From Pseudobdellovibrionaceae bacterium (GTDB taxonomy: Bacteria; Bdellovibrionota; Bdellovibrionia; Bdellovibrionales; Bdellovibrionaceae), in assembly GCA_013359135.1 (NCBI GenBank), contig JABWCN010000046.1:1-35842 (forward strand): a DNA stretch of 35,842 bases, in the 5' to 3' direction. Position numbers and translations under genes: made by a program. Within the stretch, counting starts at the first letter, position 1, and each line of letters starts with the position of its first letter. This document shows positions 22,892-35,376 of this stretch, piece after piece. Below the pieces are notes generated by a model. It searched no databases. It worked only from the letters and a program-made list of their open reading frames with translations, and was not told the DNA's origin.

Positions 22892-24331
22892 TTATTCTGA
22901 CCAGAGTTTGTGTTTTCTTATATAATCTTTAGCGAGCTCTGGTACCAATTTTTCCCATAATTTATTTTTACTTTCAATCATTTTTTTTACATCAGAGGAG
23001 TGATAATAGTTTTCTGTATTATCACAACCAGAAATATCCATGATTTGTGAACTTTCAATAAAGTGCCTATAAAGATGTATGACTTCTTTGCCTGGGAAAA
23101 AAGATTTGGTTGTTAAACAAACCTCGGATGTCTTGTGTGGATAGATATATAGTTTAGTTTGATCGTCAAGGAGCTTCCCAAGTCCTTCAAAAATACCACC
23201 TTCAAGGTTTTTATAAAGAGTTGGATCAAAAAGACTCTGTAAGTGCCTAGCACTCATCACAACTACAAATGGTGACTGTGTGTATTTTCTAAAGAAATGC
23301 TTCATTTCATAAAAATATTTGAAGTTTGAAATCAAAAGATAATAGCCTAGTGAAGTAAGGATTTCAACTCTATGTATGAAATCTTCAGTTTGTATTCCAA
23401 ATTCACTAGAAATTTCCAAAATAGGGATAATATCGGAAGGCTTTAATTTTTGAGATTTCATTTCTAATTTTAACTGTTCGTGACCTTTGCTAAGCACATC
23501 AATATGGGTATTCGTAATTGGTCGATAAAATCCTCGCTGAATAATTAAGCCTTTTCCCCAAACAGTGTCACTAATATTTAAAACTTGATCATTTGAGCTT
23601 TGGTTAGATAAACTTTTAGGAGCAAACAAAATCGCTTCAGATAGCTCGTGTTTAATTAGCTCTAAGTTCATTTTACGATTATCAAAACTTTTAAGATCTT
23701 CACCATTAAACTTAATCACATCAATGATAATTTGTCCTTTTTTTAATCCATTCACTAAATTAGGAATAAACTGCTCAGGTTTTTCTGTAGCATAAAAGGC
23801 CGAATCTACTAAGTTTACACCTAGCATTCCCAGTGCTTCTTGTTGTTGTAGCCGATGTCGGTCTTGCATGCGAACATGAAGAATGATGTCATTAAATGAC
23901 CCTTTAGGTTTTTTTTGAAATCTAATTCCCATCCAACCATGACATTTAGGAGTTTCAGCTGAACCTGTCGTCACAGTATTAGCATAGGCAAAAAAAGTTG
24001 TTCTGTTTCCACGATGCGGATCCAAACGCTTAAGTAAAAGCGAGTATTCCTTATCAAGCATTTTATTTAAGCGAGATTCGCAAACGTAACGACCACTTTT
24101 TTCTTTACCATAAATTTCATCACTATAGATCATATCATAAGCTGAAATTGTTTTTGCAATAGTTTGCGAAGCTCTTCCTACTTGAAAGAAATGTCTTGCT
24201 ACTTCTTGGCCTGCTCCAATTTCAGCAAATGTACCATAAATTTGCTCATTCAAATTAATTCTCAAAGCTTTGCTTTGGGTCGTCTTTACTTCATTGCTTT
24301 CATTTTTGCTATCATTTCTATTATCGCTCAT
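22892..24331 (-). CDS. Conserved protein of unknown function
   Basis: 479 residues, soluble, no signal peptide. The first ~22 residues are polar; then a strongly conserved-looking block appears (YGTFAEIGAGQEVARHFFQ, TIAKTISAYDM, GRYVCESRLNKML). I recall this block from widespread bacterial proteins that automatic pipelines label inconsistently. It has no catalytic signature that I can name. HGWMGIRFQ and a long C-terminal half with Leu-rich helices follow. It is 22 bases downstream of the DUF502 membrane gene, so the two are probably an operon. I assign no function. Confidence 0.75.
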   Translation of the reverse strand: MSDNRNDSKNESNEVKTTQSKALRINLNEQIYGTFAEIGAGQEVARHFFQVGRASQTIAKTISAYDMIYSDEIYGKEKSGRYVCESRLNKMLDKEYSLLLKRLDPHRGNRTTFFAYANTVTTGSAETPKCHGWMGIRFQKKPKGSFNDIILHVRMQDRHRLQQQEALGMLGVNLVDSAFYATEKPEQFIPNLVNGLKKGQIIIDVIKFNGEDLKSFDNRKMNLELIKHELSEAILFAPKSLSNQSSNDQVLNISDTVWGKGLIIQRGFYRPITNTHIDVLSKGHEQLKLEMKSQKLKPSDIIPILEISSEFGIQTEDFIHRVEILTSLGYYLLISNFKYFYEMKHFFRKYTQSPFVVVMSARHLQSLFDPTLYKNLEGGIFEGLGKLLDDQTKLYIYPHKTSEVCLTTKSFFPGKEVIHLYRHFIESSQIMDISGCDNTENYYHSSDVKKMIESKNKLWEKLVPELAKDYIRKHKLWSE

Positions 24332-24353: not shown

Positions 24354-24956
24354 TTAGTCATGTTCAGTTGATTTAACCCATCCCGTAATAGCTAAACTTA
24401 AAGCTTTTTCAACAGGTATATCTAACTTTTTAACTTTATTCTTATTAACTAAAACTGTGTAACCGCCCAAAGCATAACTCAATGGAATAAACACAGCTAT
24501 GAGCTCTTGATCAGGGACCAAATTTTTTCCAGAAAACTCGGGAATATCAGTGAAGTGATCTCGAGTTACTAATCCGACCATGTGAACTCCAGGAGTCATT
24601 TCAATACTAACTACACTTTTTAAATCTTTTTTACCTTTACTAGAAAATAGACCCATAAGATCTTTTAAAGGAGAGTAGAGCGCTTTGATTAAAGGAACTT
24701 TTGTTAGTTTTTTCTCAATCTGTTCCCAGATCGATTTAGTTATGAAATTAGTAATTAATAAACCAAAAAGAAAAATCACCAGTAAAGCCATTATAAAACC
24801 TAAGCCTGGGATATAAGTGTCATTCAAAAGAATTCTTAAAAATCTTCCAAGGATATTTTCAAGAATAATTACACCAGAATACAGCACATAAAAAGTGATA
24901 ATTATTGGGAGGAGGGTGAACAGACCACGAAAAAAAATTTCGGTTACTTTTTTCAT
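24354..24956 (-). CDS. DUF502 inner-membrane protein
   Basis: 200 residues. Two membrane helices are visible (about 8-30 and 48-72). A cytosolic or periplasmic domain with the DUF502 pattern follows: RGLFTLLPIIITFYVLY, IPGLGFI, KVPLIKALYSPLKDLM, and VFIPLSYALGGYTVLV. The family is widespread and uncharacterised. AAGGT precedes the ATG. It is the first gene of a two-gene unit with the conserved unknown gene downstream. Confidence 0.88.
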   Translation of the reverse strand: MKKVTEIFFRGLFTLLPIIITFYVLYSGVIILENILGRFLRILLNDTYIPGLGFIMALLVIFLFGLLITNFITKSIWEQIEKKLTKVPLIKALYSPLKDLMGLFSSKGKKDLKSVVSIEMTPGVHMVGLVTRDHFTDIPEFSGKNLVPDQELIAVFIPLSYALGGYTVLVNKNKVKKLDIPVEKALSLAITGWVKSTEHD

Positions 24957-25130
24957 TATATTTTACCTTTTAATCAATCTAATCAAATGTCTGTAATTTT
25001 TCAAATTAAAACAAAAACTATCAATTTAAATTTGATGCCTGTCTCAAATTTGGATGAATTAACTTTTGACTAAAGTCTATCTGACCATAGTCCGAAGAAA
25101 TTTATACCCTATGTCTAGTTTGGAGGTTCC

Positions 25131-27059
25131 GTGTTCGCATTATCATCTGCTGTAATTGCTAGTAAACACCTTTGTGGCTTTAAAAGAATCTACGGTTCGA
25201 TGAATTTAATAGTTGCCTTAGCTTTTCTCAGTTTTACTGAAGTAAGCTTGGCTCAGTCCTTCCCTAAAGTTGTTCCTGGTGAATATATTATTAAATATAA
25301 GATGGATATTGGTAGATCAAATGCCATAGGTAAAATTCAATCAAAGGTGAATTTAAAGGCAGCATTTCCAGAGATGAATATGCTCCATATGGCAGTTAAG
25401 CCGGGGCAAGAAGCGGTCATTGATGAATTAAGAAAAGACAAAGATGTTTTATTCGTGGAGCCTAATTATATTCTTGAAAAACTTGTTGATGATAATACTG
25501 CTGGGAAAGTTTTAAATACTCTTTCTCTTGATCAGGTTTACTCCCAAAGCTCTACAAGTTTTACTCAAAATTATTCAAACGTTAAAGTGGACCAGGCATG
25601 GACTTTATCAAGTGCTTACGATTCTTCGAATCGACCTATAGTAGCGATTCTTGATACTGGACTTGATAAACAACACACAGTCATTCAGGCATCTCAAGCT
25701 TTGTGGGTCAATACTAAAGAGATTCCTGGTAATGGAGTCGATGACGATCAAAATGGATACGTAGATGATGTGAATGGTTGGAACTTTGTTTCTAATACCT
25801 CTTCCTTTGCTGATGATGAAGGCCATGGAACTCATGTTGCCGGGATAGTTATAGGTGCAGGGATGGATATTTTCTCTGCTCAACTTGATGTTTCTAAAAT
25901 TAGAATTATGCCACTTAAGTTTTTAGATTCTCAAGGGGCTGGGTCTACAGCCAATGCGATTAAGGCTATTTATTATGCTGTAAATAATGGAGCAAAAGTC
26001 ATTAACAACTCTTGGGGAGGACCTGGTTATTCGAGCTCTCTATTAGAAGCGTTAACATTTGCTTATAATCACCAAGTATTGATTGTCTCAGCAGCTGGAA
26101 ACTCAGCAAAAAATAATGATACAAATGAAATGTTTCCAGCTAACTACGGAGTGCCAAGTAACATCAGTGTCGCTGCGACTACAGAAAGTGATAGGTTAGC
26201 AACATTTTCAAACTTTGGTGCTAATCTTGTTCATGTAGCAAGCCCTGGAGTTTATATTTATTCTACTTTGCCAGGTAATATCTTTGGATCTATGTCGGGA
26301 ACTTCGATGGCAGCTCCATTTGTTGCTGGTATCGCGGCATTAGCTTTAAGAGAAGCTCCGAGCTTGACAGGATATCAAATGAAAAACCTAATAATTTCTT
26401 CTGCATTTAGTTTATCAGCGCTGAGAGGTATAGTTCAATCTGGAGCAAGGGTGGATGCTTACTCGTTACTTTCTCAAGTTAAATCAAATCAGTATTTAGC
26501 AGCAAGTCAGCCTGATTATAAGCCCGTTTACTCCGAAGAGAGAAGTTTAGCTTCAGAATCAGAACCTTCACAAGAAAGTACTAGTAAAGGAGGATGTGGA
26601 GCAATATCTACATCAGCTTTTATCGGAAAAGGGCAAAGTTTCTGGAACTCCGGAAATGGCGGTGCTTCTGCTCTTGCTGTCATGGCATTGATGGCGTTTC
26701 CATTGTTGGTTTATTTTGGATTACGCCTAAGATCGCGAAGGAAAGATTATCGACGACAACATGATCGATTTATGATGAGTTCTGATATACGTGTCAAGGT
26801 AGGTGATAAGGAGTTAGTTGGTCACATGCGCACAATCTCTTTAGGAGGCCTAAGTTTTAATGCTGAAGAGATGTTGGATAAAGGTGGCTCAGTTACCATT
26901 AAAATTAAAGGTCCAGACAACAAAGAAATCGATGTAGAGGGACGTGTCGTTTGGTCAGAAGCGAATCATTCTTACGGTGTCAAGTTCGAGGAAACACGTC
27001 TATCTTTGTCAGAGACAATTTTAAACTGGACACAAAAGTTAGTTAAAGCTGATAACTAA
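25131..27059 (+). CDS. Subtilisin-like protease with C-terminal membrane helix and PilZ domain
   Basis: 642 residues from GTG with GGAGG four bases upstream. In order: signal sequence (hydrophobic core about 24-41), I9-type propeptide (about 45-118), and an S8 domain (about 150-445). The triad is Asp175 (VAILDTGLD), His232 (GHGTHVAG) and Ser392 (GTSMAAP), with oxyanion Asn324. A Ser/Glu-rich linker and GGCG (487-490) lead to one membrane helix (about 511-531) and a basic stop-transfer RLRSRRKDYRRQ. A PilZ domain follows (about 540-625), with RRQHDR, ISLGG and the strand VEGRVVWS. The Asp/Asn that usually precedes xSxxG is Thr here. Topology would place protease outside and c-di-GMP-binding domain inside. 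The gene ends at the terminator inside slt. Confidence 0.88.
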   Translation: MFALSSAVIASKHLCGFKRIYGSMNLIVALAFLSFTEVSLAQSFPKVVPGEYIIKYKMDIGRSNAIGKIQSKVNLKAAFPEMNMLHMAVKPGQEAVIDELRKDKDVLFVEPNYILEKLVDDNTAGKVLNTLSLDQVYSQSSTSFTQNYSNVKVDQAWTLSSAYDSSNRPIVAILDTGLDKQHTVIQASQALWVNTKEIPGNGVDDDQNGYVDDVNGWNFVSNTSSFADDEGHGTHVAGIVIGAGMDIFSAQLDVSKIRIMPLKFLDSQGAGSTANAIKAIYYAVNNGAKVINNSWGGPGYSSSLLEALTFAYNHQVLIVSAAGNSAKNNDTNEMFPANYGVPSNISVAATTESDRLATFSNFGANLVHVASPGVYIYSTLPGNIFGSMSGTSMAAPFVAGIAALALREAPSLTGYQMKNLIISSAFSLSALRGIVQSGARVDAYSLLSQVKSNQYLAASQPDYKPVYSEERSLASESEPSQESTSKGGCGAISTSAFIGKGQSFWNSGNGGASALAVMALMAFPLLVYFGLRLRSRRKDYRRQHDRFMMSSDIRVKVGDKELVGHMRTISLGGLSFNAEEMLDKGGSVTIKIKGPDNKEIDVEGRVVWSEANHSYGVKFEETRLSLSETILNWTQKLVKADN

Positions 27060-33258: not shown

Positions 33259-34590
33259 ATGGATTTTTCCGTATTTGATAACTCTTTTGATGTGATTGTA
33301 GTTTATGATTCGAACGGAATTATTAGATATGGAAACTCGGCATTTTATTTATTCACAGAGCTTTCTCCGGCAAGAGCAATTAACAAGTTAGATATTGCGA
33401 AAGTATTTTCATCTATAGAAGGTGAACCTTTAAAAATTGCTGACTTCGTAAATGTAAAAGAAGTGACGCCAATTAAACATGTTAGGTTCACGACAAAGAA
33501 TATTGAAAATGGTTTGGCTCAGTATACTCTGAGTCCAGCTCCAGGAAACGAAGAACTACAAATTTTATTCTTAAAAGATCTAACGATCGAAGAAGATTTG
33601 CACCGTAAGTATCGAAGAGAAATGGTTTTGAAGGATAAGAAAATTGAAGAGATGGACTCCTTGATTGAGTTACTTCAAAATACAAGGCTAGTTAAAGAGC
33701 CAGTTAAAATTGTTGAGGAGTTTACTCGACATTTATTAAAATATTTCTCTATCGGCATAGGTTTTATTAAAGATAGTTCTGGAGTTGTTAGCACTGTCAT
33801 TAATTCAAAACAGCTATACAGTGATGAAAACATACAAAATGCTTTTCAAGAAATTAAAGGTTTTAAAAAGACCGAAAATTACCTTTTTCTTAAAGGTCAA
33901 GATCTACATGATTTTGTTAATAATTGTCCTTCTTATTTGCATGGTTTAGTTATCATTCCAATAAACTCTCAAGGTAAGGAGTTTTTTGAAGTTTATTTAC
34001 CATTTTCATCATTAGAATTATTGGATACCTTTGATCATGAAAAAGTAACTACTTTAGCTGAGCAAATGAAGTTACTTTTGCAAAATATGGCACTAGAAAA
34101 ATTATCTATATTTGATGACTTAACAAAACTTTACAACTCTAGGTTTTTTAGAGAAAAACTAAATGAATATACCTCCAAATATGAGATTTTAAATTTGGTT
34201 TTATTAGACATAGATTTTTTTAAAAAAATTAATGATAACTATGGACACCTTGGTGGAGATGCAGTTCTTATTCAAGTTGGACAAATCTTAAAATCCTATC
34301 AAGAAAAAGAAGTTTTAATCTCAAGAGTTGGAGGCGAGGAGTTTGCGATTCTAGCTCCTAATCAATCTCTTGAAGAAACATTGAGTTTGGCTTCTAAGAT
34401 CTCTGAGCAGGTGAAGCAAGCTCAAATTCCATTTGATAGCAAAACTATAAAACTCACTATGAGTTTTGGGATTAGTAATTGGAATCCTGAAAAGTATAGT
34501 GTTAGGGATTTTTATAAAAAAGCAGATGAAGCGCTTTATACAAGTAAAACCAATGGGCGTGATCGAATTACTATTTTGAACTGCGCTTAA
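33259..34590 (+). CDS. Diguanylate cyclase, PAS plus sensor region plus GGDEF, no I-site
   Basis: 443 residues with no membrane helix. An N-terminal PAS-like domain (1-115, YDSNGIIRYGNSAFY) is followed by a helical linker and a sensor region (about 150-275) that could be GAF-like. The GGDEF domain is about 280-443, with LTKLYNSRFF, metal Asp317/Asp319, NYGHLGGD and the active loop GGEEF (358-362). Expected product: c-di-GMP from two GTP. The inhibitory RxxD I-site five residues before the loop is EKEV here, so product inhibition by that route is unlikely. The gene precedes the pilin locus by 215 bases in the same direction. The signal sensed is unknown. Confidence 0.93.
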   Translation: MDFSVFDNSFDVIVVYDSNGIIRYGNSAFYLFTELSPARAINKLDIAKVFSSIEGEPLKIADFVNVKEVTPIKHVRFTTKNIENGLAQYTLSPAPGNEELQILFLKDLTIEEDLHRKYRREMVLKDKKIEEMDSLIELLQNTRLVKEPVKIVEEFTRHLLKYFSIGIGFIKDSSGVVSTVINSKQLYSDENIQNAFQEIKGFKKTENYLFLKGQDLHDFVNNCPSYLHGLVIIPINSQGKEFFEVYLPFSSLELLDTFDHEKVTTLAEQMKLLLQNMALEKLSIFDDLTKLYNSRFFREKLNEYTSKYEILNLVLLDIDFFKKINDNYGHLGGDAVLIQVGQILKSYQEKEVLISRVGGEEFAILAPNQSLEETLSLASKISEQVKQAQIPFDSKTIKLTMSFGISNWNPEKYSVRDFYKKADEALYTSKTNGRDRITILNCA

Positions 34591-34881: not shown

Positions 34882-35376
34882 ATCATAGGAATATTGGCGA
34901 CAATAGGAATTCCACAATATCAAAAATTTATGTCGAAGGCTCGTCAAGCGGAAGCGAAAACACACTTGAATGCAATTTTTCAAGGGGAGTCATCATTTTT
35001 CACAGAGTATAACCAATACACGACAAATATGCAGGCTATTGGGGCGGGAGCAGTAGGAACACAGCTAAGATATAATGCAGGGTTTGATATAACAGCTTGT
35101 ACCGATTATGTGGTAGGGCCAGCGCCTGCTCTTGGAGCAGCCGGGACAAATGATATAAAATCACTGGGAACGGCAGCGAATTGGTATTGGAATGCAGCGG
35201 GAGTAGCAGACCCAGGAACAGCGATAACAGCGTGTGTTTCCACAGCAGGAGCTCAGACATACACTGCTGGAGCATGGGGTAATCCAACAAATATTCAAAG
35301 TGGAGCAAACAACAATGCAGACAGGTTCACAATAAATCAAAATAGAGTTCTGTCACAAATAGCTGTTGGAATATAG
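34806..35376 (+). pseudogene. pilA: Type IV pilin (PilA-like), frameshifted by a 10-bp tandem duplication
   Basis: The leader is prepilin-type: MKMKLVRSEQG then FSLVELMVVVAII, with cleavage between Gly11 and Phe12 and conserved Glu5 of the mature protein. At 34872-34891 the ten bases ATCATAGGAA occur twice in a row, shifting the frame. The N-terminal frame then runs on to a stop at 35012, while the rest of the pilin continues in another frame to 35376. With one copy removed the reading is continuous, giving IIGILATIGIPQYQKF and a pilin of 186 residues. It has two Cys (TACTDYV, TACVSTA) and Gly/Ala-rich loops. RQAEAK, AIFQGESSFF and YNAGFD resemble pilins of Bdellovibrio-like bacteria. It may be a real inactivation or an assembly join. 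GGGG precedes the ATG, and a terminator follows at 35425. Confidence 0.88.
34872..34891 (+). repeat. 10-bp tandem duplication in the pilin gene
   Basis: ATCATAGGAA at 34872-34881 repeated at 34882-34891. One copy gives a normal pilin frame; two copies shift it by one. Confidence 0.97.

Follow-up and report, generated by a model that had tools for sequence, protein, structure and literature searches.

Can an exported protease be controlled from inside the cell by a second-messenger domain that is part of the same chain? This question is raised by a gene in a 3.84-Mb draft genome from the phylum Bdellovibrionota, whose product joins a subtilisin-like (S8) protease through a transmembrane (TM) helix to a PilZ domain. 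The gene lies in a stretch of 35,842 nucleotides, which is referred to here as the window. Predatory bacteria possess up to about 18 PilZ domains, with few known outputs. Here an output can be read from the sequence, in that a putatively exported protease is physically joined to a c-di-GMP-type domain, in a protein that is conserved order-wide and apparently made in attack phase.

Domain organization of the fusion

The earlier note had described a single open frame encoding an exported chain with a propeptide, one membrane segment and a basic stop-transfer, and each of these elements was recovered (Table 1). The GGAGG ahead of the frame supports the GTG start, so the earlier residue numbering stands. 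Both the Peptidase_S8 match (E 3e-53) and the PilZ match (E 2e-17) exceed the curated Pfam cut-offs, and both families were matched by all 54 aligned members. An AlphaFold2 model based on the 54 orthologs (mean pLDDT 88) shows a prodomain and catalytic domain, followed by disorder over roughly residues 470–510, a single helix that is broken at Pro524, and a PilZ barrel. By the positive-inside rule, the RLRSRRK that follows the helix would place the protease outside the membrane and the PilZ domain inside.

Table 1. Features of the fusion gene and its upstream region, in window positions
Feature	Position	Strand	Basis
sigma-28 (FliA)-type promoter, TAAAG-N15-TCCGA	25071..25098	+	10/12 positions; ortholog enrichment
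Shine-Dalgarno GGAGG	25122..25126	+	read directly in the sequence
S8 protease-TM-PilZ fusion gene	25131..27059	+	open reading frame, 642 aa; GTG at 25131, stop at 27059
Putative N-terminal export signal, about residues 1–42	25131..25256	+	sequence reading and model helix
Prodomain (Fervidolysin_NPro-like), residues 47–112	25269..25466	+	Pfam, 19.2 bits (cut-off 21)
Peptidase_S8 catalytic domain, residues 168–425; D175, H232, N324, S392	25632..26405	+	Pfam, alignment, fold
Gly-Cys-Gly, residues 488–490, invariant, in a variable disordered linker	26592..26600	+	ortholog alignment
TM helix, about residues 512–535, with invariant Pro524, followed by RLRSRRK	26664..26735	+	model and alignment
PilZ domain, residues 541–633; RxxxR = R542..R546; second motif T568-I-S570-L-G-G573	26751..27029	+	Pfam and model

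An intact subtilisin-like protease

The earlier note's claim of a complete S8 protease with Asp175, His232 and Ser392 as its triad proved correct. These residues and N324 are invariant in all 55 relatives aligned. In fold comparisons, the S8 part matches deseasin MCP-01 (3vv3) with a Z score of 44, and pro-Tk-subtilisin, with its prodomain included, with a Z score of about 41. The model aligns with pro-subtilisin structures from residue 26 onward. The Pfam match to the prodomain is weak in the source protein, and 39 of the 54 orthologs match it at E values up to 0.001. With an intact triad and oxyanion asparagine in a modelled subtilisin fold, the protein is predicted to be a protease.

A PilZ domain with an altered second motif

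When the full chain was used as the query, the fold search returned the S8 part alone, and the PilZ domain was therefore modelled and searched separately. Pfam scores PilZ (PF07238) at 64 bits, where the cut-off is 22.5, and the domain on its own is modelled with a pLDDT of 89.9. The PilZ barrel that the earlier note had expected is thus predicted with confidence. All of the top matches in the PDB are PilZ domains. The closest is Alg44 with c-di-GMP bound, at a Z score of 15.2 and an rmsd of 2.1 over 100 residues, and MotI and BcsA are among the other best matches; most of these structures hold c-di-GMP.

PilZ domains that bind c-di-GMP canonically carry RxxxR together with [D/N]xSxxG (PMC11800159). 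The fused domain has the first of these and departs from the second. R542 and R546 are invariant in 54 of 54 orthologs, as are both glycines of the second motif, and its serine is present in 52. However, the D/N position is occupied by threonine in 32 orthologs and by serine in 19 (T/S in 51 of 54). The RRxxxR and ISLGG motifs read in the earlier note are both real, but the residue ahead of ISLGG is a threonine and not the canonical aspartate or asparagine. Among the second motifs read from the other PilZ domains in the source genome, this position is usually filled by D, N or E. The closest relative of the fused PilZ within the same genome (L171, G000:C34:43794-44087) likewise has a threonine there, and the stretch of it that was extracted showed no RxxxR.

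Given the T/S replacement, c-di-GMP binding is plausible but cannot safely be assumed, and a role as a c-di-GMP sensor is likewise plausible from the motifs. The fused PilZ could instead work without binding c-di-GMP, as certain PilZ domains do (PMC11800159), and the near-uniform T/S substitution points in that direction. This is unlikely, in our judgement, with RxxxR and both glycines invariant and the motif serine nearly so. Moreover, the non-binders XC1028/PilZ, 3dsg and 3cnr match the model with Z scores of only 6.7–6.8, against 15.2 for the c-di-GMP-bound structure.

Distribution and origin

The earlier note had tied its proposal to conservation of the fusion across relatives, and such conservation was found. 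Sixty relatives yielded 54 complete fusions, three that were ended by contig edges, one without PilZ and two without an ortholog, the latter in incomplete assemblies. Of 241 genomes sampled across the phylum, 74 belong to the Bdellovibrionales, and 67 of these carry the fusion, as counted from the listed matches with doubtful cases checked; it is single-copy and near-universal in the order. Two of the genomes, of 3,782,950 and 3,988,594 bases, we take to be those of B. bacteriovorus HD100 and strain Tiberius, which belong to another genus of the source's family. The fusion was not seen in the roughly 167 sampled Bdellovibrionota genomes outside the order, where the matches consist of S8 and at times the linker and TM helix. 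A PilZ scan of open reading frames in the best 80 of more than 553 relatives' loci likewise found no S8-PilZ protein outside the order, all matches being from Bdellovibrionota; a rare independent fusion may exist elsewhere.

Mean column identity is 37% across the protein and 43% within PilZ, against invariant catalytic residues and RxxxR. A lineage outside the order but in the same phylum, GWA2_38_16 and its relatives, has S8 proteins that end in GCG, linker, TM helix and basic residues and lack PilZ. In a tree of the S8 domain, proteins of this type are sister (support 98/93) to a clade of all order members (100/99). Copies with PilZ missing or decayed (G039 with G219, G151, and a second copy in G033) fall within the order clade and keep the Cys-Gly and the TM helix. 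The PilZ-less sister group and these nested copies together indicate that an older S8-GCG-TM protein gained PilZ once, and that loss or decay of PilZ followed on three or more occasions.

Judged from the alignments and the tree, the fusion is genuine, ancient and strongly maintained. That it is a functionless product of chance or gene prediction is a negligible prospect, as full-length orthologs, 54 in number and spread over many genera and some ten families, keep the open frame, both domains and the key residues.

Several related proteins were seen along the way. The second S8 copy in G033 (L151, G033:C9:50500-55000) has lost PilZ, and its matched stretch is interrupted by an in-frame stop, with GCG-TM-RRR kept. 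Four loci of another family of the phylum (L144, L145, L146 and L147, family f13) encode S8 proteases that end in GCG, linker, TM helix and basic residues without PilZ, and L144 has two near each other; these may represent a C-terminal tail of a single-substrate type. Unrelated S8 proteases with GGGGGC-TM-RRR tails, akin to Cys-type sorting signals, occur in L077 (Oligoflexia) and L106 (Mariprofundaceae).

The linker cysteine and the helix proline

Few parts of the protein are as poorly conserved as the linker (mean majority fraction 0.39, with 0.68 for S8 and 0.55 for PilZ). Within it, Gly488-Cys489-Gly490 is essentially invariant, and so is Pro524 in the helix. In 24 of the 54 orthologs, the source protein included, Cys489 is the sole cysteine of the mature chain, which excludes an internal disulfide in those 24. 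The cysteine lies 11–28 residues from the TM helix. Both GCG and the helix proline predate PilZ, and the greater age of GCG implies that some function of the tail is independent of PilZ. Cys489 may be a site of lipidation, a release site or a partner in an inter-chain disulfide.

The main rival to control of the protease by PilZ is that the chain is processed or released at the GCG/TM segment, with PilZ as a possible gate. The GCG-linker-TM-basic stretch would then be a C-terminal signal of the invariant-cysteine type, for sorting or release. A rhomboid, some other enzyme or the protease itself would cut the chain at or near the membrane, Cys489 perhaps having been lipidated first, and the protease would go to the outer membrane or outside. 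PilZ would have come later, acting from the cytoplasm to brake or gate the cut. We hold this to be possible rather than probable. The age of the motif, the PilZ-less sister proteins that end in this stretch and its retention in the PilZ-loss copies (L058, L148 and L151) all speak for it, as does the frequent status of Cys489 as the only mature cysteine. TraA of M. xanthus has an invariant-Cys sorting tail with comparable Cys-to-TM spacing (PMC11980579), and rhomboid genes, at one to four per genome, are present in all six genomes checked. On the other hand, a profile of the tail found no other protein in each Bdellovibrionales genome checked, and known C-terminal signals end the chain, whereas here 107 residues follow.

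The MYXO-CTERM tails processed in the myxosortase system (PMC11980579) show the same succession of invariant cysteine, short linker, TM helix and basic residues. Unlike them, the tail described here is not C-terminal in most members and is found in a single protein per genome. Membership in MYXO-CTERM was rejected on this ground and on two others, both of which also weigh against processing. No match to TIGR03901 (MYXO-CTERM) was obtained in the source genome at E≤10, and PF02517 (CPBP, myxosortase-type) had no match in the fusion-bearing HD100, with two in the source genome.

Cys489 could also form a disulfide-linked dimer, in which PilZ would merely set the geometry of the dimer on the inside and have no second-messenger role. 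A single invariant cysteine between glycines, in a flexible membrane-proximal linker, would suit such a bond, but the invariant RxxxR would be left unexplained, and we consider this highly improbable.

A putative attack-phase promoter

A motif near TTAAG-N15/16-TCCGATAA is strongly enriched upstream of the 54 orthologs. Scores of 11–12 of 12 were reached in 22 of the 54 upstream regions, compared with 0–1 in each antisense, coding or Markov control set. In B. bacteriovorus, 92 of 140 attack-phase promoters contain the FliA (sigma-28) consensus TTAAG-N16-CCGATA, which this motif resembles (PMC3627812). The source and HD100 sites each score 10 of 12; being weaker than the consensus and not significant alone, they are unconvincing by themselves. 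Across the orthologs, a FliA attack-phase promoter thus appears to be conserved upstream of the fusion, in agreement with the motif of the FliA regulon.

The HD100 ortholog lies at 2454664-2456493 (−) of the 3,782,950-base chromosome, which has 18 PilZ matches. Those at 2430859, 2454682 and 3008936 fit, by position and not by annotation, Bd2524, Bd2545 and Bd3100, the three pilZ genes that are reported to be down-regulated on leaving attack phase (PMC2797640). From the promoter and this correspondence, we infer that the fusion is apparently made in the free-swimming attack phase.

Genomic neighbourhood and c-di-GMP context

The diguanylate cyclase that the earlier note had seen in the window is present at 33259-34590 (+), with an intact GGEEF motif and a C-terminal GGDEF domain. 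Across the loci compared, its position near the fusion is not conserved, so its presence does not count as evidence of a link to the protease, and the connection was dropped. A small protein at 34894-35376 (+) matches ComP_DUS (type IV minor pilin, DNA-uptake-sequence receptor) with 29.9 bits, just above the cut-off. Adjoining the fusion and divergent from it are a 479-aa protein (22892-24331, −), with no match in Pfam or NCBIfam, and a DUF502 membrane protein (24354-24956, −). This pair is found in 7 of 11 loci, all seven from the source's own family, and is absent from the four that represent other families. A conserved operon or partner was accordingly rejected, the pair offering no order-wide gene partner.

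The order genomes that lack the PilZ tail or the gene encode 5, 5, 5, 0, 1, 0 and 1 PilZ proteins and 3, 3, 3, 2, 2, 2 and 1 GGDEF proteins, respectively, while the other 14 order genomes checked encode 6–16 and 3–6. These low counts fit a c-di-GMP role, as a correlation that is confounded with genome size and with shared ancestry within one family. Loss of c-di-GMP signalling can explain the loss of PilZ in part at most, because GGDEF proteins, though fewer, persist in all of the PilZ-loss genomes.

Proposed mechanism

The reading that we favour, with about even confidence, is that the fusion is a single-chain periplasmic subtilisin, tethered to the inner membrane and controlled by its own cytoplasmic PilZ domain, which would act as an analogue of LapD/LapG at the attack-to-invasion switch. 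The protein would be made in the free-swimming attack phase from the FliA promoter. c-di-GMP would bind at RxxxR, between the membrane and the barrel; as RxxxR starts about seven residues past the TM helix, ligand binding would act directly on the membrane-proximal segment and could reorient it. The signal would then pass via the proline-kinked helix, possibly in a Cys489-linked dimer, and alter the activity of the protease outside, its access or its retention. A change in c-di-GMP at the attack-to-invasion switch would thereby be coupled to proteolysis in the predator's own envelope.

The T/S residue in the second motif, the lack of an order-wide gene partner and the greater age of GCG count against this mechanism. 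In a variant that we find distinctly unlikely, PilZ gates release, with c-di-GMP deciding between inner-membrane tethering and a cut at the GCG/proline-kinked segment that sends the protease to the surface or the prey. A modified, non-terminal sorting tail would then let a second messenger steer how an attack enzyme is shed or sorted.

Returning to control of the tethered protease, if c-di-GMP binds, the fusion would provide one-chain, inside-out control of a periplasmic protease and tie c-di-GMP to proteolysis at the attack-to-invasion switch. GCG and the helix proline, both invariant, are an older feature for which clear mutants are possible.

Comparison with known systems

The earlier note did not know this architecture as a described system. 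That view has to be revised, since a table published in 2008 already lists the B. bacteriovorus protein NP_969350.1 as 'Subt-PilZ' under 'Signalling', without analysis (PMC2605481). NP_969350.1, which by position is Bd2545, has the same domain order as the source fusion and comes from the same bacterial order. The 2008 paper does not deal with topology, the GCG motif and proline, the PilZ motif change, the single origin, the losses or the FliA promoter (PMC2605481), and no dedicated study of Subt-PilZ was found in the searchable literature. Order-wide conservation, a single origin followed by losses, the motif change, the GCG and proline features and the FliA promoter therefore appear to be new here.

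For the catalytic domain and the prodomain-catalytic unit, the nearest solved structures are deseasin MCP-01 and pro-Tk-subtilisin; unlike the fusion, both are secreted and have neither a TM helix nor PilZ. LIC_20173 of Leptospira interrogans also joins PilZ to a membrane-associated protease, but this is a PrsW-type intramembrane metalloprotease of another family and topology (PMC11800159). Control of a periplasmic protease by cytoplasmic c-di-GMP status has a precedent in LapD/LapG of Pseudomonas and relatives (PMC3032545, PMC4359373). In that system, the receptor LapD is a separate protein with HAMP and degenerate GGDEF/EAL domains, and LapG is a cysteine protease. Pfam finds none of these hallmarks in the fusion chain, only S8, PilZ and the weak prodomain match, so that what LapD and LapG divide between two proteins would here be combined in one chain of PilZ and an S8 serine protease.
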